Position numbers and translations under genes: made by a program. Shown piece after piece: positions 370 through 15,472 of a stretch of DNA of 64,000 nt. Where the stretch lies: the NCBI RefSeq assembly GCF_003854935.1, contig NZ_CP033970.1, positions 124,001 to 188,000 of the forward strand, in the 5' to 3' direction. Under the pieces are notes generated by a model. It saw only the letters and a list, made by a program, of their open reading frames with translations, was not told the DNA's origin and ran no database searches. Source of the DNA: Cupriavidus pauculus. GTDB lineage: Bacteria; Pseudomonadota; Gammaproteobacteria; Burkholderiales; Burkholderiaceae. Within the stretch, counting starts at the first letter, position 1. Every line of letters begins with the position of its first letter.

Positions 370-582
370 TCAGGCGTGCAGGAAGCGCGGCTGGAGCACC
401 ATGTCCGAAGCCGAGCTGCCGATGCCGGTCGATTCTTCCGACGAGCCCAGTCCAGCGAAACGGCCGTGTTCCTGGGCGGTGGTCAGCAGACCCATCGGCA
501 GGACGGTGGCGAGCACGTAAGTCACGGTGACACCCAGCGAAAGGACACCGAGGGCGAGGATGGTAAGCAGCGTGGCGTTCAT
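370..582 (-). CDS. Small single-span membrane protein, candidate oxalate-regulon member
   Basis: This is a 70-residue protein of unknown function. Residues about 4-36 are strongly hydrophobic and rich in Leu, Val and Thr, predicting one transmembrane helix. The remaining tail is polar and Gly/Ser-rich. The ATG at 582 is preceded at the usual distance by an AGGAG ribosome-binding site, which makes it a credible gene despite its size. About 70 bp upstream lies the same 17-bp dyad found before oxc, frc2, the GntR gene, panE and the CoA-ligase pair. That is the main reason to infer a role in oxalate metabolism, perhaps at the membrane near OxlT. I recognise no family, and the function is unknown. 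Confidence 0.6.
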   Translation of the reverse strand: MNATLLTILALGVLSLGVTVTYVLATVLPMGLLTTAQEHGRFAGLGSSEESTGIGSSASDMVLQPRFLHA

Positions 583-650: not shown

Positions 651-667
651 TGGTATGTGGTATATCA
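651..667 (-). promoter_or_regulatory. Oxalate-regulon operator copy A
   Basis: The 17-bp site TGGTATGTGGTATATCA matches the dyad NNGTAT-N5-ATAYYA shared by six promoter regions in the first 15.5 kb. It lies about 70 bp upstream of the 70-residue membrane protein gene. The 10-base core TGGTATATCA resembles sites of FadR-type (FCD) GntR regulators, and such a regulator is encoded at 13434-14177. Confidence 0.6.
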
Positions 668-679
668 TTAGAGTTTTTG

Positions 680-716
680 CTCCAAAAACAACAACGCACC
701 CCGGGGGGTGCGTTGT
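680..716 (-). terminator. Rho-independent terminator of the LysR/oxlT transcript
   Basis: ACAACGCACCCC and GGGGTGCGTTGT form a near-perfect GC-rich stem at 691-716. Read on the minus strand it is followed by TGTTTTTGG, a usable U-tract. It lies downstream of the minus-strand LysR gene ending at 831 and separates it from the small membrane gene. Confidence 0.65.
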
Positions 717-830
717 GCGTCTCAAAAGAAGATGTCGAAGGGTGCGCTACGGGCAGATCAGCTCCGGAAAATGCCGATATCGACACAAATCACGCTATCG
801 CACCGCACCAGATGAATCCCGTTCATCGCC

Positions 831-1742
831 CTACCCTACTTTCTTCAGCAAACCCTGGTCGTACTCCTGGGCGCGCAGGTTGTCCCACACGGCCGCGGCA
901 TTAGGCTTCAGCGACCGGGCCTTGCGCCGGACCAGCATGACGTTCGACGTCACCTGTGGCCGCAGCGGGCGCAACACCGCGGCTGGCGCCATGCCGCTGG
1001 CCTGCGCGCGAGACGGCACGACGCCGATGCCGAGCCCCATCGCCACCATGCCGAAGATGGCCGCGAAATGCCCGAGCAATTGCAGCGAGCCGGGCCGCAC
1101 GTGATACGTGGACAGCGCGCGCTCCACGGCCGGCTGCACGCCCGAGTTCTGATCGAGGGCCAGCACCGACGCGTCGGCCAGTTCGCCCCACCCCAGCGAT
1201 TCGCGCGCCGCCAGCGGATGGTCCGCCGGCAGGACCGCTTGCAGCGGATCGGTGCACAACGGCTCGCAATACAGGTCGTCGCACGCTGCGGGGTTGCTGG
1301 CGATGCCGAAATCGACCTCGCCGCTGCGCACGCTCTGCAGCACCGAATCATGCGCCTTGTCGCGCAGCGTGATGCCGATGCCCGGCCACGCCTTGCGGCA
1401 CCCGGCCAGCCACATCGGCACCGACATCGACGACAGCACCGGATCGGTAGCGATCTGCACCGTGCCCTGCGATGGCTTGCAGGTGCCGTGGCTGTCCCGC
1501 AGCGTCTGCTCGACCTCCTCGATCAGATGGCAGATGCGTTGCGACAGCATCTCGCCGGCGTCGGTCAGCTCCACCTGCCGCGTGGTGCGATCGAACAGCC
1601 GCTGGTCGATTTCTTCTTCCAGCTCGCGCACGCTGCGGCTGATGGCCGACTGCGTGAGGCCAAGCTCGGCCGCCGCGCGCGTAAAGCTCTTCTGGCGCGC
1701 CACCGCGGCGAACGCCTTCAACTGAGGAAGCGAAACATTCAT
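831..1742 (-). CDS. LysR-family transcriptional regulator
   Basis: This 303-residue LysR-type regulator has its winged helix-turn-helix at residues about 4-62 (LPQLKAFAAVARQKSF, then AISRSVRELEEEI) and an effector-binding domain from about 90. The ATG at 1742 gives the standard LysR N-terminus. It lies 47 bp downstream of oxlT on the same strand, so the two are probably co-transcribed. Its ligand cannot be read from sequence. By position, oxalate or a related dicarboxylate is likely (inference). The frame continues open upstream through oxlT in another reading frame, but that extension is not real. Confidence 0.85.
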   Translation of the reverse strand: MNVSLPQLKAFAAVARQKSFTRAAAELGLTQSAISRSVRELEEEIDQRLFDRTTRQVELTDAGEMLSQRICHLIEEVEQTLRDSHGTCKPSQGTVQIATDPVLSSMSVPMWLAGCRKAWPGIGITLRDKAHDSVLQSVRSGEVDFGIASNPAACDDLYCEPLCTDPLQAVLPADHPLAARESLGWGELADASVLALDQNSGVQPAVERALSTYHVRPGSLQLLGHFAAIFGMVAMGLGIGVVPSRAQASGMAPAAVLRPLRPQVTSNVMLVRRKARSLKPNAAAVWDNLRAQEYDQGLLKKVG

Positions 1743-1789
1743 GGTGCCGCTCCTTCCTGTGCGGGGACTGCTGGGGTTGGGAGCGCCGG

Positions 1790-3130
1790 CTATTCGCCTT
1801 TGCCCGTGGATAGACCGGCCAAGTAGCCGTTGTCGCCGACCGTCCTGGCCGCCGCGTGGCCGGTGATGAAGCGCCGGCGCATCGGTTGCAGCACGAACTT
1901 TGCCGATAGCCCTGCCGCCACGGTCATGACGGCCGCCACCGCGAACACCAGGTTCCAGCCCCCGGTATGCGACAGCACCGATGCCAGCGGCACCAGCAGC
2001 GCGGCCGTGCCCTTGGCCGTGTACAGCGTGCCGGCGTTGGCGGCGGCGAACTTGCTGCCGAACGTATCGGCACACAGCGCCGGGAAGATCGAGAAGATCT
2101 CGCCCCAGAACAGGAACGTCAGCGCCGCGAACAGCATGAACCAGTACGGGTTGTGTCCCAGCTCCAGCAGGCCGATCAGCGACAGCCCCTCGCCGATGAA
2201 GATCACGAACATCGTGTTCTCGCGCCCGATGCGGTCCGAGACCAGCCCGCACAGCGGCCGCGTCAGCCCGTTGCAAAGGTTGTCGATCGACAGCGTCATC
2301 GTCAGCAGCGGCAGCGTCATGCCCAGCATGGTCACCGGCATCGTGGCGAAGCCGAAGTCCTTGGCAATCGGGCCCAGCTGCGCCGTGGCCATGATGCCGC
2401 CGGCCGCCACCGCCACGAACGAGGCGTAGATCACCCAGAACACCGGCGTGCGCACCATCTGGCCCGGCGTGAACTCCACCGGGTTGGTCAGGATGGCCTT
2501 GTTGGCCTTCACGCCCTTCGGCGGCTGCGGCTTCACCAGCAGCAGCGCCATCGCAAAGATCAGCACGCCCTGCAGGATGCCGAACGTGAAGAACGCATGC
2601 TCGTAGCCCGACTTCTGGATCATGTTGGCGATCGGGATCACGGTCAGGGCCGAGCCGGCGCCAAAGCCGGCCGCGGTCAGGCCGGCGGCCAGGCCCCGCT
2701 TGTCCGGGAACCACTTCAGCGCGTTGCCGACGCAGGTGCCATAGACCCCGCCCGCGCCAATCCCGGCAATCACGGCGGCCGTGTAGAGCATCGGCAGCGA
2801 CGTGGCATAGGAATTCATGACCCACGCCAGCCCGGCGCAGATCGCCCCGCCGGCCACCACGGGACGCGGGCCAAACTTGTCGACGAGCCAGCCTTCCAGC
2901 GGCACGAGCCAGGTTTCGGTGACGATGAAAATGGAAAAGGCGACCTGGATCGCAGAGTCGCCCCAATGGTGCTTGGCGTTCATGGGCGTCACGAACAGCG
3001 TCCAGCCATACTGGAGGTTCGCCACGAGGCCCATGCAAAGTACGCCGATGAATAGCTGGAACCAGCGGTTGCGGAGCAGACCGCCGTTGGTGTCGCCCAT
3101 GGCGGGGCCTGTCGCATCGAAGTGCGCCAT
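1790..3130 (-). CDS. oxlT: MFS oxalate/formate antiporter
   Basis: This 446-residue, 12-span major-facilitator protein belongs to the oxalate/formate antiporter family, which exchanges external oxalate for formate across the inner membrane. The start at 3130 (MAHFDATGP) was chosen because GGAGA lies just upstream; an in-frame ATG at 3147 and a longer frame to 3232 are less likely. A lysine in the segment YTAKGTAA near the C-terminal third and an arginine in NGLTRPLCG fit the two membrane-buried basic residues known to bind oxalate in Oxalobacter OxlT, though I aligned them only by eye. It sits beside frc and oxc. No copy of the shared 17-bp dyad precedes it, so the divergent LysR gene may control it. 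Confidence 0.85.
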   Translation of the reverse strand: MAHFDATGPAMGDTNGGLLRNRWFQLFIGVLCMGLVANLQYGWTLFVTPMNAKHHWGDSAIQVAFSIFIVTETWLVPLEGWLVDKFGPRPVVAGGAICAGLAWVMNSYATSLPMLYTAAVIAGIGAGGVYGTCVGNALKWFPDKRGLAAGLTAAGFGAGSALTVIPIANMIQKSGYEHAFFTFGILQGVLIFAMALLLVKPQPPKGVKANKAILTNPVEFTPGQMVRTPVFWVIYASFVAVAAGGIMATAQLGPIAKDFGFATMPVTMLGMTLPLLTMTLSIDNLCNGLTRPLCGLVSDRIGRENTMFVIFIGEGLSLIGLLELGHNPYWFMLFAALTFLFWGEIFSIFPALCADTFGSKFAAANAGTLYTAKGTAALLVPLASVLSHTGGWNLVFAVAAVMTVAAGLSAKFVLQPMRRRFITGHAAARTVGDNGYLAGLSTGKGE

Positions 3131-3312
3131 GTCGTTGTCTCCTTGCATTAGTGTCTTTCGCGCTCTGCGGCGCGCGTTGTGGGCTGGCCTGGGGGGACGC
3201 CCGACTTTCACTACTGAATGAGCGCCTGACATTGCGGCACTGAATTCGTGGATTGATGCTACTTCAAACTTAGATCAGCACAGCATAAAGTTTTTTATTA
3301 TGATCATTGACG

Positions 3313-3340
3313 ATCGTTTATAGATTGCGGGAAATCGTTC
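3313..3340 (+). promoter_or_regulatory. Putative LysR site between oxlT and lysR
   Basis: The oxlT/lysR intergenic region contains ATCGTTTAT (3313-3321) and AAATCGTTC (3332-3340), the latter ending just before the LysR start. The same elements, ATAAACGAT (reverse complement of the first) and AAATCGTTC, recur before the 105-residue gene at 4413. This suggests one LysR protein acts on both promoters. The protein binding is inference. Confidence 0.4.
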
Positions 3341-3341
3341 A

Positions 3342-4301
3342 ATGAAGAATGCCACGCTGCGCCAGCTGAAAGTATTCGAAACGGTGGCCCGCCACCTGAG
3401 CTTTTCGCGCGCGGCGGAGGAACTGCATCTCACCCAACCCGCTGTTTCCACACAGGTTCGGCAGCTGGAGCAGCACGTGGGGCTGCCGCTCTTCGAACAG
3501 CTCGGCAAGCGCATCTACCTGACGCCGGCGGGCACCGAGATGCTCCACTACAGCCGCAGCATCATCCAGCAATTCCGCGAAGCGGAAGACGCGATGGCGC
3601 AGCTTAAGGGTATATCCGGGGGGCGGCTCAACGTCGCCGTGATCAGCGCCGGTGACTATTTCTTCCCGCGGCTGCTGGCCGAATTCATGAACCGGCATGA
3701 TGGCGTCACGCTCAACCTTGCCGTGCACAACCGCGAGGAACTGCTGCACCAGCTAGGCGGCAACCTGACCGACCTGGCCGTGATGGTCCGCCCGCCGGAG
3801 GGCATGGATACCATTGCCGAGCCGTTCGCGCCCCACCCCTATGTGATCGTCGCCGCGCCAAACCACCCGCTGGTGGGCGAGCGCAACATCCCGCTGGCCG
3901 GCCTGACCGAGGAAGCGTTCGTGTCGCGCGAGAAAGGATCGGACACCTGGAACTCGATGCAGGAAGGCTTTGCGGGCCGGCTGTCGAACCTGCGCATCGC
4001 CATGGAGATCAAGAGCACCGAGACGATCAAGCAGGCCGTGATCGCCAACATGGGCATTGCGTTCCTGTCCGCGCACACGGTGGGGCTGGAGCTGCAGGCC
4101 GGCAAGCTCGCGGTGCTGGACATCCAGGGCTTCCCGGTCATGCTCAACTGGTATGTCGTCCACCGCAAGAACAAGCGCCTGCCGCCCGTGGCGCTGGCTT
4201 TCAAGCAGTTCCTGATGGAGGAAGGCCACACGCTGATCCAGCAGATCACGGGCGTGGAAGGCCTGATCCGCCCCCATCGGCCCAAGTCATCCCATACATA
4301 A
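3342..4301 (+). CDS. LysR-family (CbbR-like) regulator divergent from oxlT
   Basis: This 319-residue LysR regulator has the DNA-binding domain at residues about 4-63 (LRQLKVFETVARHLSF, AAEELHLTQPAVSTQVRQLEQ) and a periplasmic-binding-like effector domain after it. Its sequence style resembles CbbR, the activator of carbon-fixation genes. It is transcribed away from oxlT and towards the small gene at 4413, a typical layout for a LysR activator and its targets. Oxalotrophic Cupriavidus grow on oxalate through formate and, in some species, the Calvin cycle, so a CbbR-type sensor here is plausible, but the ligand is not visible. Confidence 0.85.
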   Translation: MKNATLRQLKVFETVARHLSFSRAAEELHLTQPAVSTQVRQLEQHVGLPLFEQLGKRIYLTPAGTEMLHYSRSIIQQFREAEDAMAQLKGISGGRLNVAVISAGDYFFPRLLAEFMNRHDGVTLNLAVHNREELLHQLGGNLTDLAVMVRPPEGMDTIAEPFAPHPYVIVAAPNHPLVGERNIPLAGLTEEAFVSREKGSDTWNSMQEGFAGRLSNLRIAMEIKSTETIKQAVIANMGIAFLSAHTVGLELQAGKLAVLDIQGFPVMLNWYVVHRKNKRLPPVALAFKQFLMEEGHTLIQQITGVEGLIRPHRPKSSHT

Positions 4302-4350
4302 ACGATGACTTATGGTTTTGCGCTGAAACTTTAATTATCGTAAATCGTTC
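4299..4350 (+). promoter_or_regulatory. Putative LysR-regulated promoter region of the 105-residue gene
   Basis: ATAAACGAT at 4299-4307 and AAATCGTTC at 4342-4350 repeat the elements found in the oxlT/lysR intergenic space. The first overlaps the end of the LysR gene. Their shared presence suggests co-regulation of oxlT and the downstream small gene. Confidence 0.35.
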
Positions 4351-4412
4351 CCCGGGCCTAAGCTCCACTTCACACGCGAAAGACGTGTGTTGTTCAACCC
4401 GAGGAGACGATC

Positions 4413-4730
4413 ATGAACCACCTCCAGTCAGACGCGCCCGCCACCGCCGCAATGTCGGCGGCCGTCAGCGAGATGCGCCGTCCTGATCGTGACAACCAGT
4501 TGGCAGCCTTCAACGCCGCGTTCGAAGAACTCGGCCTGCGCTTCCGCTGGGACATGCCGATGTTCGACTGGCTTTGCGGCATCGAATGCGAGAAGACGCG
4601 CGTCACGCGCTACATCGAGCAGTACCATGCCCACCTGCTCACGGCCTATGACGCGCCGTTCCTGAGCCAGCTGATTTTCGACAAGAAGAACGCGTACCTG
4701 AAGGCCCGCGAAGGCGCCGGCATCAACTGA
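4413..4730 (+). CDS. Conserved-looking hypothetical protein in the oxalate locus
   Basis: This 105-residue soluble protein starts at an ATG preceded by GAGGAG. It is acidic and basic in patches, with a short motif CEKTRVTRYIEQYHAHL near the middle and no signal peptide or membrane segment. I do not recognise the family. It lies between the CbbR-like regulator and the CoA-ligase pair and is closed by a strong terminator, so it is a single-gene unit. Its upstream region repeats elements from the oxlT promoter, suggesting a role tied to oxalate or formate use; this is inference. Confidence 0.7.
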   Translation: MNHLQSDAPATAAMSAAVSEMRRPDRDNQLAAFNAAFEELGLRFRWDMPMFDWLCGIECEKTRVTRYIEQYHAHLLTAYDAPFLSQLIFDKKNAYLKAREGAGIN

Positions 4731-4770
4731 TTCCGCGCAACGCCTTCCTGGCGCCGACACCGTCCGCTGC

Positions 4771-4798
4771 GGGCCCCTTCAAGGGGCCCGTTGCTTTT
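4771..4798 (+). terminator. Rho-independent terminator
   Basis: GGGCCCCTT and AAGGGGCCC form a tight hairpin around a single C, followed by GTTGCTTTT. It ends the 105-residue gene transcript and isolates it from the operator of the next gene. Confidence 0.75.
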
Positions 4799-4850
4799 GT
4801 AGGCGGCCGTGGCCCCAAGCATCCTTTCCAGCACATCTCCTTGCTTTCGT

Positions 4851-4867
4851 TGGTATATCACATACCA
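4851..4867 (+). promoter_or_regulatory. Oxalate-regulon operator copy B
   Basis: TGGTATATCACATACCA is a perfect 6-5-6 inverted repeat and the most symmetrical of the six copies. It lies 60 bp upstream of the GTG start of the CoA-ligase beta-subunit-like gene, placing that gene pair in the putative GntR regulon. Confidence 0.65.
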
Positions 4868-4926
4868 TATTCCAATAACGATATCAGACCGGCAGCAGTT
4901 TGCCGGCCAGACGCACAAGGAGACAC

Positions 4927-6120
4927 GTGAATATCCACGAGCATCAGGCAAAGGAGCTGCTGAGGCGCTACGACGTGCCCGTCCCCCCGGGCTGCGTGGC
5001 CTTCACGCCGGACGAGGCCGCCCACGCCGCACGCAAGCTGGGAGGCCCGGTCTGGATCGTCAAGGCGCAGATCCACGCCGGCGGCCGCGATGTAGGGCGC
5101 TTTGCCGGCGATGATTCGGGACAGGGCGGCGTCCGCGTCGCCACGTCGATCGACGCGGTGCAGGCCCACGCGGCCCAGATGCTGGGCCAGACCCTGGTGA
5201 CCGGCCAGACCGGGCCGGCGGGCCGGACGGTGCGGCGCTTCTACGTCGAGAAAGGCGTGGAGGTGGAGCGCGAGCTGTTCCTGGGCATCGAGATCGACCG
5301 CGCCACGTCGCGGGTCGCCATGCTGGCCGCCCCCGACGTCGACGCGGGCACCCGCGCCCTCAAGGTGACGATCGATCCGGCCACCGGCATCCAGCCGTTC
5401 CATGCGCGCCGGCTGGCCTGCGCGATGGGGCTGTCCGGCCGGCAGGTAGACGCCGCCACGCGCTTTGTCCATGCCGCCTACCGCGCCTTTGTCGAACTCG
5501 ATGCCTCGCTGCTGGAAATCCATCCGCTCGGCGTCACCGGCTGCGGCGACCTGATCGCGCTGGACGCGACCTTCCGGTTCGACGACAGCGCCCTCTTCCG
5601 CCATCCCGAGATCGAGGCCATGCGCGACGAGAGCGAGGAAGACCCCGCCGAGGCCGAGGCGGCGCACCACGGGCTGGCCTATGTGCGGCTGGGCGGCAAT
5701 ATCGGCTGCGTGGCCAACGGCGCCGGCCTGGCGATGGCCACCATGGACCTCGTCCGGCTGGGCGGCGCCGAACCGGCCAGCTTCCTCGACCTGCGCAGCG
5801 ACGCCACGCCGGAACACTTCGCTGGAGCCTTCCGGCTGCTGCGGGCCGACCGGCAGGTCGAAGGCATCCTGCTCAACCTTTTTGGCGCCACCGTCCACTG
5901 CGACGCGTTGGCCGAAAGCGTGGTCGCCGCCGTGCGGGACACTGACCTGACCCTGCCAATCGTCGTCCGGCTCGAAGGCATCCGTGCCGACCTGGGCCGC
6001 CAGATCCTGCGCGATGCGGGCCTGCCCATCGTCTGCGCCGGCCATCTGGCCGAGGCAGCCGGGAAAATCGTGGCCGCCGTCGGCGCCAGCCGCAAGAAAG
6101 GAGCGCCATGCCTGTGCTGA
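4927..6120 (+). CDS. Divergent ADP-forming acyl-CoA ligase, beta (ATP-grasp) subunit
   Basis: This 397-residue homologue of succinyl-CoA synthetase/malate-CoA ligase beta subunit has an N-terminal ATP-grasp fold ([25 protein letters not shown]) and a C-terminal CoA-ligase domain ([18 protein letters not shown]). The GTG at 4927, after AAGGAGA, matches the family N-terminus. Several family signatures are altered: the usual IEINPL is LEIHPL, the glycine-rich DVGGGAT is DLRSDAT, and NIFGGIVRCD is [10 protein letters not shown] (consensus forms recalled from memory). These changes fall near the substrate and Mg sites, so the acid used is probably not succinate. It overlaps the alpha-subunit gene by 13 bp. 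Candidates are formate, oxalate or another acid of the oxalate pathway (inference). Confidence 0.8.
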
Positions 6121-6980
6121 TCGACAAGAACACGCGCGTGATCTGCCAGGGCTTTACCGGCGCGCAGGGCACGTTCCATGCCGAACAGGCGCTGGCCTAC
6201 GGCACGAACATGGTCGGCGGCGTCACGCCGGGCCGGGGCGGCGAATCGCACCTGGGCCTGCCCGTGTTCGACACCGTGGCCGCGGCGGCTGAGGCCACCG
6301 GCGCCAATGCGTCGGTCATCTACGTGCCGCCCGCGTCGGCCGCTGATGCGATCCTGGAGGCCATCGACGCCGGCATCGCGCTGATCGTCTGCATCACGGA
6401 AGGCGTGCCGGTCATGGACATGGTGCGCGTCAAGCGGGCGTTGTCAGGCTCCGCCAGCCGCCTTGTCGGGCCGAACAGCCCGGGGATCATCACGCCCGGC
6501 CAGTGCATGATCGGCGCGATGCCGGGGCCGCTCCACGCGCCGGGCCGGATCGGCGTGGTGTCGCGCTCGGGCACGCTGGCCTATGAAGCGGTGGCGCAGA
6601 CCACGGCGGCCGGGCTCGGGCAATCGACCTGCATCGGCATTGGCAGCGACCCGGTGCACGGCACGGACTTCATCGACTGCCTGGCGTTGTTCATGGCCGA
6701 CGACCAGACCGAAGGCATCCTGATGATCGGGGAAATCGGCGGCTCGGCCGAGGAGGAAGCCGCGCGGTTCTTGCGCGACGCGCGCCGGCGCAAGCCGGTG
6801 GTGGGCTACATCGCCGGGGCCACGGCGCCGCCGGGACGCCGCATGGGCCATGCGGGCGCCATCGTCTCGAACGGGATGGGCGCGGCACAGGCCAAGATCG
6901 ACGCCCTGCGCGGCGCCGGCGTCCACGTGGCCATGTCGCCCGCGGAACTGGGGTCGACGATGGCGGCGGCGTTGAAATAG
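6108..6980 (+). CDS. Divergent ADP-forming acyl-CoA ligase, alpha subunit
   Basis: This 290-residue SucD-like subunit carries the CoA-binding Rossmann part (residues about 4-120, including [19 protein letters not shown]) and the catalytic phosphohistidine motif GHAGAI, with His248 matching the His of SucD. The key catalytic residue is therefore intact, unlike the altered substrate loops in the partner. The 13-bp overlap implies translational coupling and a 1:1 complex. Together the subunits would interconvert a carboxylate plus CoA and ATP with an acyl-CoA plus ADP and phosphate. In this setting they could prime CoA transfer to oxalate or recover ATP from formyl-CoA; both ideas are inference. 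Confidence 0.82.
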
Positions 6981-7052
6981 GCAGCGGGAGCGGGCTGGCC
7001 CCGCCCCCCCTGTACACACCGAAGCGGCGGACGAAAGTCCGACCAGCCTGCG

Positions 7053-7499
7053 TCAGCCAGCGCCGGCCACGGCCGATGCCTTGGCTTCCAGCTCGGTAAT
7101 GCGCTTGCGCAGCGCCCGTTCTTCCTGGAAGCGCGCGGTCTCGTCGCGGATCACCGCCACGATGCCGGTGATTTCCCCGCCGGCGCCGTGCATCAGCGCC
7201 ACGGTAAAGGCGATCGACATCGCGTCTCCGCGCTTGTTGACCGCCGGCACCTTCAGCAGGTCGTGGCCGTAGCGGGTCTGGCCCGTGGCCATGGTCTTGT
7301 CGTAGCCCTCCCAGTGCCGCGCGCGCAGCCGCTCGGGAATGATCAGGTCCAGCGACTTGCCCAGGGCTTCTTCCTGGGTATAGCCGAACATGTATTCGGC
7401 GGCCGGGTTCCACAGCGTGATGGCGCCGTCGGGGCCGGAGATGATGACCGCGTCGCCGATGGCGGACACCAGTTGCTGGTAGTCGATTTCAGTCTGCAT
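7053..7499 (-). CDS. Single PAS-domain protein
   Basis: This 148-residue protein is made of one PAS domain (residues about 6-125: AIGDAVIISGPDGAITLWNP, then FGYTQEEALGK) followed by a short C-terminal helix with coiled-coil character (RALRKRITELEAKA). There is no kinase, cyclase or DNA-binding output. The ATG at 7499 is preferred over one six bases upstream because AGGA is correctly spaced only for the inner one. It lies between the CoA-ligase pair and frc but is cut off from frc by a terminator. It may sense redox or a ligand and act through a partner; the partner is unknown. Confidence 0.75.
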   Translation of the reverse strand: MQTEIDYQQLVSAIGDAVIISGPDGAITLWNPAAEYMFGYTQEEALGKSLDLIIPERLRARHWEGYDKTMATGQTRYGHDLLKVPAVNKRGDAMSIAFTVALMHGAGGEITGIVAVIRDETARFQEERALRKRITELEAKASAVAGAG

Positions 7500-7603
7500 G
7501 GTCATTCCTGAGGAATGGGGAGAAGGATCTGCTGCACCGCCCGGTCAGCGGGCGGCTCATTATGGCACCGGCCTTGCGGCCGGGGCGTCGGGGCGTCCGG
7601 GAG

Positions 7604-7651
7604 CCCAAAACACGCCGGGGCCGCGTGGCATGCCATCCACGCGGCCCCGGC
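7604..7651 (-). terminator. Strong terminator downstream of frc
   Basis: A 15-bp perfect stem (GCCGGGGCCGCGTGG paired with CCACGCGGCCCCGGC, 7614-7651) lies downstream of the minus-strand frc gene. On that strand it is followed by GTGTTTTGG. It should end the oxc-frc transcript before the PAS gene. Confidence 0.75.
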
Positions 7652-7686
7652 ACCCGGACGCTGGCGCCAGGGCGCCAGCACCTGGG

Positions 7687-8937
7687 TCAGATGACCTGGG
7701 CCTCGCGCAGGCGGGAGATATCCTCCTCGCTGTAGCCCAGCCCGGCCAGCACCTGCTCGCTGTGCTCGCCCAGCAGCGGCGACCCGGTGATCTCGGGCTT
7801 CATGTCCGAGAACTTGATCGGGCTGCCCACCGTCAGGTACGTGCCACGCTGCTTGTGCGGCACCTCCACGATCGACCCGCTCTTGCGCAGCGATTCATCC
7901 GCGGCGATTTCCTTCATCGACAGCACCGGCGAGCAGGGGATGTCGAACTTGCGCAGGATGTCCACCGCTTCGTACTTGGTCTTGTCGGCCAGCCAGGCTT
8001 CGATGGTGTTGAAGATGTCGAAGATGTGCGGCTGGCGCGCCTTGGGCGTGTTGTAGTTCGGGTCGGTGATCCACTCTTCCTTGCCCAGCGCCTTGCAGAT
8101 CGGCTCCCAGGCGTGGCCCTGGATCGTGAAGTAGATGTACGCGTTGGGATCGGTCTCCCAGCCCTTGCACTTCAGCACCCAGCCCGGCTGGCCGCCACCG
8201 CCGGCGTTGCCGCCACGCGGCACCACGTCGGTGAACGTGCCGTGCGGGTACTGGGGATACTCTTCCAGGTAGCCCAGGCGGTCCAGGCGCTGCTGGTCGC
8301 GCAGCTTCACGCGGCACAGGTTCAGCACGGCGTCCTGCATCGACACGGCCACCTTCTGGCCCTTGCCGGTCTGCTGGCGGCCGATGATGGCCGTCAGGAT
8401 GCCGATGGCCAGGTGCATGCCGGTGTTGGAATCGCCCAGCGCGGCAGCCGACACGGTCGGCGGGCCGTCCCAGAAGCCCGTGGTGGATGCGGCACCGCCC
8501 GCGCACTGCGCCACGTTCTCGTAGACCTTCAGGTCTTCATAGTGGTGGCCGTCGCTGAAGCCCTTGACCGATGCCACGATCATCATCGGGTTCAGCTCGT
8601 TGATGCGCTCCCACGAGAAGCCCATGCGGTCCAGCGCGCCCGGGCCGAAGTTTTCCACCAGCACGTCCGACTCGCGGATGAGCTGCTCCAGGATCTTCTT
8701 GCCTTCCGGCTTCTTGGTGTCCAGCGTCAGCGAGCGCTTGTTGCTGTTCAGCATCGTGAAGTACAGCGCGTCGGCGTCCGGAACGTCGCGAAGCTGCGTG
8801 CGGGTAACGTCGCCCGATCCGGGGCGCTCCACCTTGATCACGTCCGCGCCAAACCACGCCAGAAGCTGCGTGCAGGCGGGGCCGGCCTGGACATGCGTGA
8901 AGTCGATGATCTTGATGCCGTTCAGAGGTAGGTTCAC
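7687..8937 (-). CDS. frc: Formyl-CoA:oxalate CoA-transferase
   Basis: This 416-residue class III CoA-transferase moves CoA from formyl-CoA to oxalate, making oxalyl-CoA and formate in the cytoplasm. Asp169, in GDSNTGMH, falls at the catalytic aspartate position of the Oxalobacter enzyme. The flexible glycine loop is complete (GGGGQPG, residues 246-252). The N-terminus [14 protein letters not shown] and the segment [17 protein letters not shown] are family hallmarks. It lies 39 bp downstream of oxc on the same strand with no operator between, so the two form an oxc-frc operon driven from the promoter at 10.8 kb. Confidence 0.95.
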
Positions 8938-8976
8938 GTTCTGTCTCCCATTGGAATGGAGGTGAAATGCAGGGGA

Positions 8977-10710
8977 TTACTTCTTGGCCGAGCTTTGCGG
9001 ATTGAGGTTGGTCAGCCGACCGCTTTCGGTGCCCGCGGCCGGATCGATCACGGCGTTGACCAGCGTGGGCTTGCCCGACCGCAGCGCGTCGCGCACCGCG
9101 GCTTCGAGTTCCTGGGGCGTGGTGGCGGTGTGGCCCGCGCCACCAAACGCCTCCATCATCTTGTCGTAGCGGGCGCCCGGCACGAACATCGTGACCGCCG
9201 GGTCCTTGCCGCCCGACGGGTTGACGTCGATGCCCTTGTAGACACCGTTGTTGTTGAACACGACCACGCAGATCGGCAGGTTGTAGCGGCAGATCGTCTC
9301 CACTTCCATGCCCGAGAAGCCGAACGCGCTGTCGCCGCACACGGCCAGCACCGGCTTGCCGGTTTCCACCGCCGCCGCCACCGCGTAGCCCATGCCCACG
9401 CCCATCACGCCCCAGGTGCCCACGTCCAGGCGCTTGCGCGGCTGGTACATGTCGATCACGGCGCGCGCGTAGTCCAGGGTGTTGGCGCCTTCGTTGACGA
9501 ACGGAATGTCCGGATGGTCCTTGACCACGTCCTTCAGCACGCGCAGCGCGCTGTGGAAGTTCATCGGCGACGTATCCCTGGCCAGCGTCTCGGCCATCTT
9601 CGACAGGTTCTTGTCCTTGCGTTCCTCCACCGCGCCCAGCCAGTCGGCGCCCGGCTTGGCAAAGTCGTTGCCGATCTTGCCCAGCAGTGCCGACACGCAC
9701 GAGCCGATGTCACCGATCACCGGCGCGGCGATGGCCACGTTGCTGTCGATCTCGGTCGGCGAGATGTCGATCTGGATGAACTGCTTCGGCTTGCCCCAGG
9801 TCTTGCCCTTGCCGTGCGACAGCAGCCAGTTCAGGCGGGCGCCCACCAGCATCACCACGTCGGCTTCGGCCAGCACGTACGACCGCGCGGCCGACGCCGA
9901 CTGCGGGTGCGTGTCTGGCAGCAGGCCCTTGGCCATCGACATCGGCAGGTACGGGATGCCGGTCTTCTCGACCAGCGCGCGGATATCGGCATCGGCGCGG
10001 GCATACGCGGCGCCCTTGCCCAGCAGGATCAGCGGACGCTTGGCGCCCTTGAGCAACTCCACGGCGCGGTCCACCGCGTCCGGCGCGGGCAGCTGGCGCG
10101 GGGCGGGATCGACAACCTTGATCAGCGACTTGCGGCCCTGCTCGGCTTCCATCGACTGGGCCAGTAGCTTGGCCGGCAGGTCGAGGTAGACCCCGCCCGG
10201 ACGGCCCGATACGGCCGCGCGGATGGCGCGGGCCACGCCTACGCCGATGTCTTCGGCGTGCAGCACGCGGAAGGCGGCCTTGGCGTGCGGACGGGCGATG
10301 GCCAACTGGTCCATCTCCTCGTAGTCACCCTGCTGCAGATCGACGATCTCGCGCTCGCTGGAGCCGCTGATCAGGATCATCGGGAAGCAGTTGGTGGTGG
10401 CGTTGGCCAGCGCCGTCAGCCCGTTCAGGAAGCCGGGCGCCGACACGGTCAGGCAAACCCCGGGCTTCTGCGTCAGAAAGCCGGCGATGGCCGCCGCATT
10501 GCCTGCGTTCTGCTCATGGCGGAAGCTGATGACGCGCATGCCGTTGGCCTGCGCCAGGCGGGCCAGATCGGTGACCGGAATGCCGGGCAGGCCGTAGATG
10601 TTCTCGATGCCATTGAGCTTCAGCGCGTCAATGACCAGATGAAAACCATCGGTTTGTGCCTGTTGCTCTTCCACAGCGTGACGCTGCAGTTCGTTGCCGA
10701 CTTCTGCCAT
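8977..10710 (-). CDS. oxc: Oxalyl-CoA decarboxylase
   Basis: This 577-residue thiamine-diphosphate enzyme converts oxalyl-CoA to formyl-CoA and CO2. It has the N-terminal pyrimidine-binding domain with the catalytic glutamate ([11 protein letters not shown]), a central domain, and a C-terminal diphosphate/Mg motif ([13 protein letters not shown] through NNNGVYKG). The Tyr-Glu pair in QGDYEEMDQ and the Tyr in GVYKG match active-site residues known in Oxalobacter OXC. The start at 10710 (MAEVGNELQ) follows GGAAGC. The frame stays open a further 95 codons, but that part has no homology. An operator copy lies about 115 bp upstream, and frc follows directly. Confidence 0.95.
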
Positions 10711-10823
10711 GGTTGCTTCCTTCTTTGCAAAGTGACGGTGATGGGAATGTCTCTGCTGGGATGTCTTCAACGGCTGCCCCGGTGTCTCCTCCTGAGGCCG
10801 CATCCGCCGGTGACGCTGAAATA

Positions 10824-10840
10824 CGGTATGTGATATATCA
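10824..10840 (-). promoter_or_regulatory. Oxalate-regulon operator copy C
   Basis: CGGTATGTGATATATCA matches the 17-bp dyad and contains the palindrome TGATATATCA. It lies 114 bp upstream of the oxc start and would control oxc-frc. Confidence 0.65.
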
Positions 10841-10957
10841 ACAATCGGCAAGGAATTTTCCCGTGTTGCGACCAACTTTCGTCGATGCAACGCAGCATTT
10901 CCTGCAAACCGGGGCGTAAAAAAGACAACGCCCCGCCGTGCCCAGGCGCAGCCGGCT

Positions 10958-11740
10958 TCAGCCGCGCATGTGGTTGACCAGCGCGCCGATCCCACGGATC
11001 GACACCTCCACGACCGCGCCGTCCTTCATCGATCCAACCCCGATCGACGTGCCGACGGCAATCACGTCGCCCGGCATGAGCGTCATGTCCTGCGACAGCC
11101 GGCTGACCTGCTCTTCTGGCGAAAACACGATGTCCGACAGCGGGTAGTTCTGCCGCTCGACGCCGTCCAGGCGGGTCACCACGCTGGCGGCGCGCCAGTC
11201 GAAATCGCGGACGATGGCCGGCCCGATGCACCCGAAGGTGTCCGAGCCCTTGGCACGCGTCCACTGCGGGAAATTGGGATCGGCGTTGAGCAGTTCGCCC
11301 GCCGTGACGTCGTTGACGATGGTGTAGCCAAAGATGTGCGACGCCGCCGCGCTGAGCGCCACGTTGCGGCATTCGCGGCCGATGACGATGCCAAGTTCGC
11401 CCTCGTAGGCGATCTTGCCGGTGTAGCCACTCGGCCGCACGATCGCGTCACCGGGGCCCGCCAGGGAACTCGCCGGCTTGAGCAGGAACAGCGGATGCAC
11501 GGGCACCGACTTTTCCAGCCGGGCCGCCAGCGCGTGGAAGTTGTTCCATAGCGCCACGATCTTGCCGGGCTGGCACGGCGCCAGCAGTTCCAGCGCGCCA
11601 TAGGTGTAGGTGTTGCCCGTGGGGCGGGGATCGGCATAGCCGGGACCATCGTATTCGATGACCCGGTCGGCATCGGCGTCGTCGATCCGGCCGTAAGCGG
11701 TGTCGCCGTCAGGACGGCGAAAGCGAATCCAGGTTTGCAC
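10958..11740 (-). CDS. Fumarylacetoacetate-hydrolase (FAH) family protein
   Basis: This 260-residue protein has the FAH fold. Metal-ligand motifs are visible in [13 protein letters not shown] and [13 protein letters not shown]. The final third carries the family stretch [16 protein letters not shown]. Relatives hydrolyse acylpyruvates or decarboxylate oxaloacetate. It sits 111 bp downstream of frc2 and on the same strand, so it is probably transcribed from the frc2 promoter. A role in oxalate metabolism, for example making or removing oxaloacetate, is inferred from position only. It is followed by a weak hairpin at 10911-10934. Confidence 0.85.
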
Positions 11741-11851
11741 GGCAGCGTTCCTTCGGCAGGCGGCGGGCGTGCCGCGCCTGCGCTGTCAGCGGAAATGGAA
11801 GCCCCTGTCAGGGGCCGTGGAGATGGGCCCGCGCGGGCCGGGCGCCGGCGT

Positions 11852-13123
11852 CTAGATGGCCCCCGCCACGCGCAGCGCGGCAATCTGCGCCGGCGAGCGG
11901 CCCAGCCATTCCAGGATCTCGTCGGTGTGCTCACCCAGCAGCGGCGAACGCTCCACGCTAACCGGCGACGCCGACATCATGATCGGCGAGCCAAGCTGCA
12001 CGTACTTGCCGCGCGCCGGATGCTCCAGCTCCACCAGGTAGCCGCGCTCGTAGAGCGAGCGGTCCTCGATCAGGTCCTTCATCGACAGGATCGGGCCGCA
12101 CGGCACGTCCACCTGGTTCAGCGCGTTCATCACCTCGAACTTGCTGCGGCCCTGCGTCCACTGCTCGATGATGCCGAAGCAGGTGGACAGCTTTTTCAGC
12201 CGCACTTCCGGCGTGGCGAATTCCGGATCGGTGATCAGGTCCTCGCGGCGGCACAGGCGCATCAGCGGCTCCCAGCCCTGCGGCTGGATGATGACGTAGA
12301 CGTAGTCGTTGGGGCCGCCCGGCGCGCAACGCAGCGCGGCGCCCGGCTGGCCGCCGCCCGACGCGTTGCCGGCGCGCGGCACGTGGTCGTCGAACTGTTC
12401 GTTGGGATACTCGCGCAACGGGCCGGCCTCCAGGCGCTGCTGGTCGCGCAGCTTCACGCGGCACAGGTTCAGCACGGCGTCCTGCATGGCCACTTCCACG
12501 CGCTGGCCGCGGCCCGAATGCTCGCGCTGCAGCAAGGCGGCCAGAATGCCGACCACGCAGTGCACGCCGGTGCCCGAATCACCAATCTGCGCGCCCGTCA
12601 CCATCGGCGTGCCGTGGGCCTCGCCGGTGGTCGAGGCCGAGCCGCCCATGCACTGCGCCACGTTCTCGTACGCCTTGCAGTCCTGGTACGGGCCGGGGCC
12701 GAAGCCCTTGATCGACGCATAGATCATGCGCGGATTCAGGTTCTGGATGTGGTCCCAGTCGAACCCGGCGCGGGCCAGCACGCCCGGGCCGAAGTTCTCG
12801 ATCAGCACATCGCTCTGCTGGATCAGGTCTTCCAGCAGCGCCTTGCCTTCCGGCGTCTTCATGTTCAGCGTCAGGCTGCGCTTGTTGCTGTTCAGCATGG
12901 TGAAGTACAGGCTGTCGGCATTCGGCACGTCGCGCAACTGCGCGCGCGTGATGTCGCCCCGGCCCGGCATTTCGACCTTGATCACGTCGGCCCCCATCCA
13001 TGCCATCAACTGCGTGGCCGACGGACCGGCCTGCACATGGGTCATGTCAAGGATGCGGATGCCATCCAAAGCTTTGCGCTGCTCCGGGCTGCTGGTGTCG
13101 CTGGGGTTCCGGCTCTCGGCCAT
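11852..13123 (-). CDS. Second class III CoA-transferase (Frc paralogue)
   Basis: This 423-residue paralogue of Frc has about seventeen extra N-terminal residues. The catalytic aspartate is Asp182 in IGDSGTGVH. The glycine loop reads SGGGQPG where frc has GGGGQPG. The start at 13123 (MAESRNPSD) follows AGGAGA. An operator copy lies only 36 bp upstream. Two paralogues in one regulon suggest a division of labour: this one may take CoA from succinyl-CoA or another donor to prime oxalate activation, as known for the Acetobacter succinyl-CoA:oxalate transferase. The donor cannot be read from sequence. Confidence 0.9.
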
Positions 13124-13433
13124 GCTTGTCTCCTGGGTTTGCGTGTTCTTTTGACATACAGTATGTGGTATATCACGGAGATGCAAGAGGGTTTCACCCC
13201 CATATGCGCAGGTTTCGTCGTTGCAGCGCAGCAAATGCAATTTGGCCGCACGCACAGCCTTGCAAACAGGCTGTTCAGGGGGATTCAGAGACCGGGGGAA
13301 AGGCGCTCACACGCCAATGACGACGCGCCGCGTGCCGGGGGGCGGCGGATGGGGAGATGGGAAGGGAGGTGCCGGCGCGTGCTCGCACCGGCCAATGCTC
13401 AGCGGCCAAACATCGCGTGACGCGACAGGCCGC
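13124..13433. other. Intergenic region between frc2 and the GntR gene
   Basis: This 310-bp stretch holds operator copy D near the frc2 start. Otherwise I see no gene, no clear hairpin with a U-tract and no repeat. Confidence 0.5.
13159..13175 (-). promoter_or_regulatory. Oxalate-regulon operator copy D
   Basis: CAGTATGTGGTATATCA matches the 17-bp dyad and includes the near-palindrome GTGGTATATCAC. It ends 36 bp before the frc2 ATG, where a bound repressor would block transcription. Confidence 0.65.
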
Positions 13434-14177
13434 TCAATCCAGGAAATCGCAATACTTTTGCACGTACTCGGCCAGGTCCAGCGAGTGCTGGCGCACCAGG
13501 CGCTCGGCCAGTTCCGTGTCGCGCTTTTCCAGCGCCTCGATGATCCGCAGGTGGTCAACGATCGATCGCGCCGCGCGGTCGCTCTGCGAGATCGTCATCT
13601 TCCGAATCGCGCGCACATGGACAAAGATGTTCTTGATCTGGTCCATGATGATCTGCGACTTCGACAGCTGCACGATCGCCTGGTGGAACGCGATGTTGGC
13701 GTCGGAATATTCCTCGATATGCTCGGCCGGCGTCGAATCGCGGAAGCTGTCGAACATATGGCGCAGCTTGCCGATTTCCTCGTCCGAGGCGTTCTCGGTG
13801 GCCAGCCGCGCGGCCATGCTCTCCAGCGCGGCCCAGACCTGGATCATCTCCACGATCTCGCGCTTGGTCTTGCGCGTGATGTAGATGCCCCGGCGCGGCA
13901 CGGTGCGCAGGAAGCCTTCCTGCTCCAGCAGCGTCATGGCCTCGCGGATCGGCGTGCGGCTCACGCCCAGCGCTTCGGACAGCACGCGCTCGTCCAGCCT
14001 CACCTCCTCGCGCGACTGGTAGATGTCGGCGTCGGCAATGGCCTGGCGCAGCATCGCGTACGCCTGGTCGCGCAGGCTGGCGCCCGCATTGATCGGTTGC
14101 AGCGACAGGGACAGCCCGTGCGGCTGTACATGCGGCTGGACTTCGGGTTGGCTTTGGGCAGACATGAATGCACTCAT
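13434..14177 (-). CDS. GntR-family (FCD) regulator, probable oxalate-regulon repressor
   Basis: This 247-residue regulator has an N-terminal winged helix (residues about 35-95, with DERVLSEALGVSRTPIREAM and RRGIYITRK) and a C-terminal all-helical FCD ligand domain with metal-binding histidines (AFHQAIVQLS, RQHSLDLAEY). The start is uncertain: ATG at 14177 is given, but 14240 and 14165 are also possible and none has a strong ribosome-binding site. It lies between frc2 and panE, and a copy of the shared dyad precedes it, suggesting autoregulation. It is the natural candidate to bind all six sites, probably released by oxalate, oxalyl-CoA or a related ligand (inference). Confidence 0.85.
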   Translation of the reverse strand: MSAFMSAQSQPEVQPHVQPHGLSLSLQPINAGASLRDQAYAMLRQAIADADIYQSREEVRLDERVLSEALGVSRTPIREAMTLLEQEGFLRTVPRRGIYITRKTKREIVEMIQVWAALESMAARLATENASDEEIGKLRHMFDSFRDSTPAEHIEEYSDANIAFHQAIVQLSKSQIIMDQIKNIFVHVRAIRKMTISQSDRAARSIVDHLRIIEALEKRDTELAERLVRQHSLDLAEYVQKYCDFLD

Positions 14178-14331
14178 CAGTGGCCGGAGCCCCGGGTGCC
14201 GGTTGGCACCTGGTGGCGGCCGACCCTTCGCGAACGTCATTCCATCCAGTTTGGCATGGCGCCATGCGTCCTGCTCATCTATCTTGGGCAGGCGCGCATG
14301 GCAACGTGGGCGAAGGGGCCGATCCGGCCTT

Positions 14332-14348
14332 TCGTATATGGTATATCA
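14332..14348 (-). promoter_or_regulatory. Oxalate-regulon operator copy E
   Basis: TCGTATATGGTATATCA matches the 17-bp dyad, with the exact core TGGTATATCA. It lies upstream of the GntR gene and just beyond the end of panE, as expected for autoregulation. Confidence 0.6.
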
Positions 14349-14386
14349 CATCGAAGGCAGGACCGGAGGGTCATTGCCCTCCGCCC

Positions 14387-15412
14387 TCAGGCCGCGCGCG
14401 CCACTGGCACCGCTGAGGCCTGTGCCGCCGGTGCCGCCTGCGCTGCCTTTGCCATGGTGTCGCGCTGCTTGATCAGGCCCAGCACCGCGTCGATCATCGG
14501 CGTCGGCTGGCCGATCATCCGGCCCATTTCCTGAACCACCGTCAGCAGCGGGTCGATTTCCATCGCCCTGCCCGCCTCCAGGTCCTGCAGCATCGACGTC
14601 TTGTGCGCCCCCACCGCGCCCGCGCCGTCGATGCGGCGCTCCACGTCGACCCGGAAATGCACGCCGAAGCTCTCGGCGATGGCCTTCGCCTCCAGCATCA
14701 TCTGCTTCGACAGCGCCCGGGTGGCTGGGTCCGACGTGATGACATCCAGCGTCCCGTGGGTCAGCGCGCTGATGGGGTTGAAGCACAGGTTGCCCCACAG
14801 CTTGAGCCAGATCTCGTCGCGGATATTGTCCCGGACCGGCGCGTCCAGGTCGGCCTGGCCCATGATCTCGGCCAGCCGCGTCACGCGCGCGGAACGGCTG
14901 CCATCGGGCTCGCCGATCGGAAATTTCTTGCCATAGACGTGCTTGATGACGCCCGGCGCCACGATCTCGGCTGCCGGGTACAGCACGCAGCCGATGGCGC
15001 GCTCCGGCCCCAGGCCATTCCACTGCCTGCCGCCCGGGTCCACCGATTCCAGCGTGCGGCCGGCGAATTCGCCGCCATGCTGGTGGAAGTACCAGTACGG
15101 AATGCCATTGACGCCGGTCACCACAGCCGTGTCCGGGCCCAGCAGCGGTTGCATCAGGTCCACCACGCCCGGCACCTGGTGCGCCTTGAGCGTGATGAAC
15201 ACATAGTCCTGCGGGCCCAGTTCGCGCGGATCGTTGGTACATCGCACTTTCGCCACGCGCTCCTCGCCCTCGATCTGCAGGCGCACGCCGTGGGCCTGCA
15301 TCGCGGCCAGGTGCGGCCCGCGGGCGATGAAGCTGACGTCGGCACCGGCCAACGCCAACTGCGCGCCCATGTAGCCGCCGATGGCGCCGGCCCCATAGAT
15401 ACAAATCTTCAT
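14387..15412 (-). CDS. panE: 2-dehydropantoate 2-reductase (PanE/ApbA family)
   Basis: This 341-residue NADPH-dependent reductase has the N-terminal Rossmann motif GAGAIGGYMG and a C-terminal helical domain. The catalytic lysine and asparagine are likely in IWLKLWGNLCFNPISAL. PanE reduces ketopantoate to pantoate for pantothenate and CoA synthesis. The last 25 residues are an Ala-rich tail not usual in the family. An operator copy lies 44 bp upstream, which groups it with the oxalate genes. It may raise CoA supply for CoA-dependent oxalate breakdown, or it may be a PanE-fold enzyme for another 2-oxoacid; sequence does not decide. Confidence 0.85.
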   Translation of the reverse strand: MKICIYGAGAIGGYMGAQLALAGADVSFIARGPHLAAMQAHGVRLQIEGEERVAKVRCTNDPRELGPQDYVFITLKAHQVPGVVDLMQPLLGPDTAVVTGVNGIPYWYFHQHGGEFAGRTLESVDPGGRQWNGLGPERAIGCVLYPAAEIVAPGVIKHVYGKKFPIGEPDGSRSARVTRLAEIMGQADLDAPVRDNIRDEIWLKLWGNLCFNPISALTHGTLDVITSDPATRALSKQMMLEAKAIAESFGVHFRVDVERRIDGAGAVGAHKTSMLQDLEAGRAMEIDPLLTVVQEMGRMIGQPTPMIDAVLGLIKQRDTMAKAAQAAPAAQASAVPVARAA

Positions 15413-15455
15413 GGTTGTCTCCTCGATTGTGATGATAGTGATGCGTTAGATGTCT

Positions 15456-15472
15456 TGGTATATCACATACTA
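15456..15472 (-). promoter_or_regulatory. Oxalate-regulon operator copy F
   Basis: TGGTATATCACATACTA matches copy B except for one base and lies 44 bp upstream of the panE start. It is the last copy found in the window. Confidence 0.65.

Follow-up and report, generated by a model that had tools for sequence, protein, structure and literature searches.

The oxalate genes oxc and frc, which encode oxalyl-coenzyme A (CoA) decarboxylase and formyl-CoA transferase, are well studied. Near frc-oxc, Cupriavidus necator H16 carries apbA2, which encodes a probable CoA-acylating glyoxylate dehydrogenase whose reverse reaction leads from oxalyl-CoA to glyoxylate; deletion of apbA2 slows growth on oxalate (PMC7486775, excerpts). 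Here, we study a stretch of 64,000 nt from Cupriavidus pauculus (C3:124,001-188,000, where C3 denotes contig NZ_CP033970.1; called the window in the following) that holds a cluster with the same kinds of genes. Unlike the excerpts of the H16 study, which do not cover regulator and operator, we focus on a 17-bp operator that recurs within this cluster and on the FCD-domain GntR regulator that probably binds it. Among the matches listed in the open literature, there is no account of a GntR protein controlling oxc or frc, or of oxalate-pathway switching, and papers outside that literature could describe one.

We computed the sites, their confinement, co-occurrence and conservation, the half-site structure, the metal ligands and the promoter overlap. 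The best explanation, which we hold with high confidence, is a repressor of the FCD-GntR type whose FCD domain has a metal-type pocket, which acts via composite operators and for which oxalate or a product close to it would be the inducer. That is, the regulator (13434-14165) would bind the six window sites, one site left of the window and one site 33 kb away, and would control its own gene as well as those for OxlT2, OxlT3, Frc2, Oxc-Frc1, the oxalyl-CoA reductase and a succinyl-CoA synthetase paralog. Most likely, one dimer (or two) would cover the -35/-10 spacer or the -10 element such that the promoters are repressed, and oxalate or a near product (e.g., glyoxylate), held by a metal in the FCD pocket, would release GntR. 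A single conserved operator names the likely regulator and predicts its regulon, and it could serve as an oxalate-sensing switch in engineering.

Copies of the proposed operator and promoter-like hexamers

A preliminary description of this DNA had reported six copies of one dyad and none elsewhere in the window. All six were found again, and the exact pattern GTAT-N5-ATAYYA occurs at these six places only. In 200 dinucleotide shuffles of the window, the pattern is observed on average 0.02 times (maximum 1), and none of the shuffles (0/200) contains GTATRTGRTATAYCA. The core TGGTATATCA is exact in 5/6 copies, as had been reported; the sixth copy reads TGATATATCA.

Operator 1 (651..667, minus strand, sense TGATATACCACATACCA) is located 68 bp before mem70, the gene of a 70-residue membrane protein, and ends 4 bp before TTTACA-N17-TATAAT. 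Operator 2 (4851..4867, plus strand, sense TGGTATATCACATACCA) precedes a sucC-like gene by 59 bp. For operator 3 (10824..10840, minus strand, sense TGATATATCACATACCG), the distance to oxc is 113 bp and the site is overlapped by TTGCCG-N17-TACCGT. Likewise, TTGCAT-N17-TACTGT overlaps operator 4 (13159..13175, minus strand, sense TGATATACCACATACTG), which is found 35 bp before frc2. Operator 5 (14332..14348, minus strand, sense TGATATACCATATACGA) lies 166 bp before gntR, for which we propose autoregulation. Operator 6 (15456..15472, minus strand, sense TAGTATGTGATATACCA) stands 43 bp before the panE-type gene, within the panE-terC intergenic region, and is overlapped by a TATAGT that is conserved in the genus loci shown.

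A genome-wide search (6.18 Mb, four contigs) yields seven exact copies of GTATRTGRTATAYCA. Each of them is located at C3:123,879-139,470, i.e., inside the oxalate cluster and within a span of less than 16 kb. The dyad is therefore not common at unrelated promoters, and the six copies described for the window have to be extended by a seventh exact site of the same cluster just beyond it. This site precedes oxlT2, a second oxalate/formate antiporter gene (TIGR04259, 631 bits), by 173 bp and is 107 bp away from the left edge of the window. An eighth site with one mismatch (C3:90,583) is 33 kb away and 357 bp before a third antiporter gene, oxlT3 (580 bits); the same near copy is also found before the homolog of this gene in a relative (L176). 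Following the operator thus revealed two more antiporter genes beyond the window. When up to two mismatches are allowed, GTATRTGRTATAYCA shows 16 matches genome-wide vs. 4 for the reversed control, which has no match at up to one mismatch. Eight of the 16 carry two mismatches, of which two are known sites read on the opposite strand and six are located elsewhere. Since the reversed control yields four matches, we treated these six as chance matches and not as operators.

With regard to promoter geometry, loci of the genus show a TTG 10-11 nt before the operator at oxc (6/6), frc2 (6/6) and oxlT2 (4/4). At these genes, a -35-like hexamer is thereby separated by 16-17 bp from a TAC[CT]GT lying across the far end of the operator. 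For panE, TATAGT overlaps the near end of the operator in 7/7 genus loci, and at the sucC sites of Bradyrhizobium (see below) a TTGCAG is found 12 nt before the operator. Despite weak -10 hexamers, these positions suggest repression. Two observations do not fit this mode. A TTG at the given distance is missing at mem70 (0/4) and gntR (0/7) and is found for 1/3 sucC sites only. Furthermore, the mem70 operator is located just upstream of TTTACA-N17-TATAAT (TATACT in 1/4 loci), i.e., in an activator-like position.

The latter would be expected if the same GntR were an activator or a dual regulator whose binding, either constitutive or with ligand, supports RNA polymerase. An activator is described within the FadR subfamily, namely GlcC of E. 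coli (PMC11323563, excerpts). However, the frc2 and panE sites are only 35 and 43 bp away from the start codon, a short distance for an upstream activator site followed by a leader, and at oxc, frc2, oxlT2 and panE the site is overlapped by promoter-like hexamers. We thus regard an activating or dual role as possible but unlikely.

Half-site structure of the operator

From its sequence, the operator reads as three half-sites, TGGYAT-N-TKGYATRCCA, and not as a plain dyad. It is composed of an inner 10-bp palindrome and an outer half-site in direct repeat at 7 bp. The outer dyad of the preliminary description is present, but the reported centre RTGRT hides the extra half-site and is not a free spacer. 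This follows from a test with free centre: among 29 distinct sites from the loci L099-L140, the five central bases are still N-T-K-G-Y in one orientation for 24 (null 3.1%), where the sites are partly related by descent such that the p-value bounds chance and not ancestry. The extra half-site is on the gene side in 7/8 sites of this genome; the panE site is reversed.

Alternatively, the third half-site would be incidental and the operator just a 17-bp dyad whose centre is free. Sites with a departing inner half-site indeed keep their outer halves intact, e.g., TGGCATAATGTATACCA and TGGTATACTGTATACCA. Beside the 24/29 sites above, this is opposed by the six window sites, which all show RTGRT in a single register although they were found with the centre left free. 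We therefore consider the plain dyad improbable.

A similar operator mostly recurs along with distant homologs of the regulator. Here, we used L101-L140 without L131, i.e., 39 loci whose GntR homologs are 43-59% identical; they are largely alphaproteobacterial and include Methylorubrum, Ancylobacter, Bradyrhizobium, Azospirillum, Bosea and Jannaschia. An Oxc of at least 60% identity is encoded in 26/39 of these loci and Oxc or Frc in 33/39; three of the six loci with neither by the thresholds used are contigs under 7 kb. Upstream of gntR (44 regions from L099-L140, L131 left out), TGGYAT-N5-ATRCCA is found with at most one mismatch in 31/44 and exactly in 24/44 regions, while random windows of the L099-L140 loci reach two mismatches in 3.4%. 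This pattern was picked after inspecting the loci and leaves the centre free, so that the free-centre test is the cleaner one. For the composite pattern, nine distant genomes show 51 matches at up to one mismatch vs. 2 for the control. Of their 18 exact sites, 15 precede an oxalate-type gene, one of which encodes a thiamine diphosphate (ThDP) enzyme that is only 25% like Oxc, and three (L191, L192, L199) are not tied to an oxalate gene. Nine further genomes, one of which has none, provide 28 exact composite matches vs. 0 for the control: 15 before gntR, 6 before sucC, 1 before panE, 1 (L244) at 566 bp from panE, and 5 without a tie to an oxalate gene.

The GntR regulator and its proposed sites across genomes

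The proposed binder is encoded at 13434..14165 on the minus strand. The preliminary description had placed this gene at 13434-14177; the gene is confirmed, and the start at 14165 is more likely since the relatives shown do not share the ATG at 14177. The protein combines an N-terminal GntR winged helix-turn-helix domain (PF00392, 47.3 bits, cut-off 27) with a C-terminal FCD domain (PF07729, 91.2 bits, cut-off 24.3). It has no close paralog in the genome, where seven further homologs show 28-33% identity, with 33% for the next one. The recognition helix SRTP[IV]REA is retained in distant homologs. In an alignment of 19 sequences, N157, H161, H205 and H227 are invariant. By alignment only, they correspond to N137, H141, H192 and H214 of chain 6z74 and fit the metal-ligand pattern of Asn/Asp plus three His that marks metal-binding FCD regulators of the Atu1419, TM0439 and LldR type; we take this chain as Atu1419 because the residue numbers fit. 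For Atu1419, Asn and three His are reported as Zn ligands (PMC7797058, excerpts). A small carboxylate of the oxalate type would suit such a pocket better than an acyl-CoA.

As a side observation, the clusters of two loci (L064, L079) contain GntR twice, with one copy next to panE and the other immediately before oxc-frc. The search of the family genomes yields two GntR matches in many further genomes as well.

We compared regulator and site numbers in 250 genomes of the family. GntR was called present for E-values up to 1e-60, sites are GTATRTGRTATAYCA-type matches with at most one mismatch, and the reversed pattern served as control. Among GntR-positive genomes, 112/118 have at least one site (mean 3.96, control 0.23), compared to 22/132 of the GntR-negative genomes (mean 0.22, control 0.30). 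In the genus Cupriavidus, the 30 GntR-bearing genomes show 5-12 sites each and the sole genome without GntR has one. Group g11 includes a single GntR-positive genome, which has three sites, while 28/29 negatives have none.

The placement of the sites was tallied for six loci of the genus and 39 further loci outside of it. A site is counted if found within 300 bp with at most two mismatches or as the variant TGGAATATTGTATATCA with one. The tally omits L065 (a genome without GntR) and L066 (100-base filler); L070 and L089 are probably one record counted twice. In the genus loci, sites are observed before oxc (5/5), panE (6/6), gntR (6/6), mem70 (3/3), sucC (3/3; 2/3 at one mismatch), the ThDP enzyme (1/1), frc (6/12) and antiporter genes (3/7). 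The same holds for terC (3/3), which shares the intergenic region of panE. In contrast, lysR1, lysR2, FAH, PAS, p105 and sucD are preceded by a site in 0/25 cases. Outside the genus, sites precede sucC (7/7), the ThDP enzyme (8/8), oxc (13/17), panE (15/23), gntR (12/43), frc (12/46), antiporter genes (3/29), PAS (1/18) and p105 (1/10), with 0/66 for the rest. Restricting these loci to one mismatch leaves sucC 1/7, ThDP enzyme 4/8, oxc 4/17, panE 8/23, gntR 9/43, frc 5/46 and antiporters 1/29. The reversed pattern is met at two frc genes in the genus set and at one oxc gene in the other set. For sites outside the cluster in relatives, oxalate/formate antiporter homologs follow in 17/20 regions, hand-picked among the matches listed, and three regions (L172, L177, L185) show no oxalate gene.

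The proposal that the FCD GntR protein of the cluster is the natural binder is thus supported by confinement, co-occurrence, placement, conservation in distant homologs and the recognition helix; binding, as well as repression and the effector, we infer. Several observations weigh against this picture. Because the genomes are related, p-values of the co-occurrence overstate independence. Six GntR-positive genomes have no site at one mismatch; all of them carry variants with two mismatches on the GntR contig, located near panE and sucC in the three that were mapped. L063 and L081 have GntR and no site even at two mismatches in 15-20 kb, and 9/44 gntR upstream regions of the distant set are without the operator at two mismatches. 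Outside the genus, a site within 300 bp is found for only 12/43 gntR genes, and at one mismatch only 4/17 oxc and 8/23 panE genes are covered. In the window, oxlT1 is without its own site according to the pattern search. Finally, five GntR-negative genomes have at least two sites. For G019 and G028, the numbers are 4 sites vs. 3 control and 2 vs. 2, respectively. G234 (about 500 contigs, no close GntR) has an exact site about 35 bp before a panE homolog. In G013 and G051, where a close homolog is missing as well, similar sites adjoin different FCD GntR genes of about 30% identity.

The last two genomes bear on the question whether several FCD GntR regulators share the operator, such that the regulon is not private to one protein. 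Their FCD GntR genes are 30-31% identical to ours, and this genome has seven further homologs of 28-33%. On the other hand, the exact motif is confined here to the oxalate cluster and the number of sites tracks this very GntR across the 250 genomes, so that we find a shared operator quite improbable. A specificity of the motif that is exclusive to the oxalate GntR is weakened nonetheless. Since similar sites adjoin 30%-identical FCD regulators in two genomes, the core motif is suggested to be a family trait.

Separately, we observed other FCD GntR genes (30%) with TGGTAT-type sites at their own promoters in L257 and L264 (near 1501 in both), which belong to genomes without a close homolog of the oxalate regulator.

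Binding of the dyad by one of the cluster's LysR regulators (831-1742 or 3342-4301), both frequent neighbours in Burkholderiaceae, can be rejected with near certainty, given sites before lysR1/lysR2 in 0/46 cases (4+4+16+22), six loci with GntR and site in which these LysR genes are missing (L060, L069, L074, L076, L082, L084), and only 2/39 distant loci with any LysR match, both below 30%.

Proposed target genes, a possible succinyl-CoA link and known systems

On the minus strand, the core of the cluster is formed by frc1 (7687..8937, formyl-CoA transferase, TIGR03253, 724 bits, cut-off 504), oxc (8977..10710, TIGR03254, 1049 bits, cut-off 739) and frc2 (11852..13123), a second formyl-CoA transferase homolog (TIGR03253, 626 bits, cut-off 504). 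Downstream of frc2 follows an FAA-hydrolase (fumarylacetoacetate hydrolase) family gene (10958..11740, minus strand, PF01557) that has no own site in 6/6 genus loci and is likely on the same transcript as frc2. The PanE/ApbA-type reductase gene (14387..15412, minus strand, PF02558/PF08546) had been labelled panE. The family holds, and by description the gene resembles apbA2. It would be an apbA2 ortholog that encodes an ApbA2/PanE2-type CoA-acylating glyoxylate dehydrogenase, i.e., an oxalyl-CoA reductase. The mem70 product (370..582, minus strand) has no Pfam or NCBIfam match and is the one regulon target without a known role; the gene is found in 3/4 genus loci covering its place and has its own operator and promoter-like hexamers. 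Between the two LysR genes, oxlT1 (1793..3133, minus strand) encodes an oxalate/formate antiporter (TIGR04259, 650 bits, cut-off 335).

Three further observations concern neighbouring or related genes. In many oxalate clusters of Burkholderiaceae, a 105-residue protein (p105, 4413-4730 in the window) is encoded close to lysR2; it matches no Pfam or NCBIfam model and has an upstream site in 1/14 cases only. Next to the oxalate cluster, we find an ACC (1-aminocyclopropane-1-carboxylate) deaminase gene (16430-17446, TIGR01274) with a divergent regulator-like gene (17594-18125, no NCBIfam match). The ThDP enzymes of the placement tally are 25-28% identical to Oxc (L054:7572-9194, L069:7779-9404 and similar) and have a site upstream in 8/8 cases outside and 1/1 within the genus; for two of them that were scanned, acetolactate synthase and 2-hydroxyacyl-CoA lyase are the best NCBIfam models, and no model reaches its cut-off among the 25 matches listed.

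On the plus strand, the cluster contains a pair of CoA-ligase genes. The pair had been reported as such, while its succinyl-CoA synthetase character, the best fit by curated cut-offs for both subunits, had been missed. The sucC-like beta subunit (4927..6120) reaches 418 bits for succinate-CoA ligase (NF001913, cut-off 370) and the SucD-like alpha subunit (6108..6980) 437 bits (NF004230, cut-off 336). For the beta subunit, TIGR01016 is just missed (375.4 vs. 375.55). The malate-CoA ligase beta model gives 428 bits, slightly more than the succinate model, with its cut-off of 604 unmet, so that the pair may also be a malate ligase. A second sucC of the genome (C2:297210) is 50% identical to the cluster copy.

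SucC-SucD-like pairs are found in 9/39 distant loci, including Azospirillum, Bosea, Methylopila, Chelatococcus and Jannaschia. In all seven Bradyrhizobium-type genomes searched (six Bradyrhizobium and one Bradyrhizobiaceae: L213, L220, L224, L231, L234, L239, L241; L117 is outside this set), the exact composite operator is located between mdh and the sucC of the tricarboxylic acid (TCA) cycle, 50-60 bp before sucC. Within this region, 16/17 operator bases are invariant vs. a mean column identity of 70%; GGGTTGCAG in front is invariant as well. A Rhodopseudomonas genome (L138) has no operator between mdh and sucC. On a simple reading, oxalate users would need extra succinyl-CoA, both to form the initial oxalyl-CoA and to make up for the thioester that the reductase branch consumes. 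Alternatively, the pair may ligate oxalate directly or form malate-CoA. The operator points to a succinyl-CoA synthetase as a step at which oxalate may enter the CoA cycle at the expense of ATP. Our judgement is evenly poised on the wider proposal of an ancient oxalate regulator of Alpha- and Betaproteobacteria that, via the three-half-site operator, couples oxalate catabolism to succinyl-CoA synthetase, i.e., to a dedicated SucCD paralog (Cupriavidus, Azospirillum, Bosea and others) or to the sucCD operon of the TCA cycle (Bradyrhizobium). If true, the supply of succinyl-CoA would start the activation of oxalate and replenish the CoA thioester that is withdrawn via the oxalyl-CoA reductase.

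Among known systems, GlcR of Paracoccus denitrificans (PMC11323563, excerpts) is likewise a GntR repressor; it clusters with FadR-subfamily clades and belongs to a neighbouring two-carbon acid pathway (glycolate). It differs in that it controls glycolate oxidase, in a strain without growth on oxalate. NanR of E. coli (PMC8012715, excerpts) is a GntR repressor with directly repeated TGGTAT-type half-sites, several per operator. Here, the differences are its three direct GGTATA repeats, a 32-residue N-terminal extension and the sialic acid genes controlled; a (GGTATA)3 operator is not what we find, since in the oxalate operator two halves are repeated directly with a 7-bp period and the third is inverted.

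Closer similarities are observed for Atu1419 of Agrobacterium fabrum, an FCD repressor of the VanR group (PMC7797058, excerpts), whose metal ligands, Asn and three His, align with those of the oxalate GntR. It shares a 10-bp GT-AT-AC palindrome that overlaps -10 or lies between -10 and -35. It differs by its operator, ATGTATACAT, for which the excerpts mention no added half-site, and by its hydroxycinnamate genes.

Finally, the inner part of the oxalate operator is similar to FadR-subfamily operators of the 2-nt class (PMC4494728, excerpts); words starting with oxal, frc or formyl-CoA are absent from the main text of that paper. With this FCD-type system, the oxalate regulator has the helix-turn-helix and FCD domains in common. 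Its operator is partly like the core palindrome TKGT-N2-ACMA, in which GT and AC are 2-3 nt apart. The core is exact (TKGTATACCA) in several alphaproteobacterial sites, and the window cores TGRTATAYCA (TGGT-AT-ATCA) depart from TKGT/ACMA in one half by at least one base. What sets the oxalate operator apart are its oxalate gene targets and the additional conserved half-site at a distance of 7 bp to the core.

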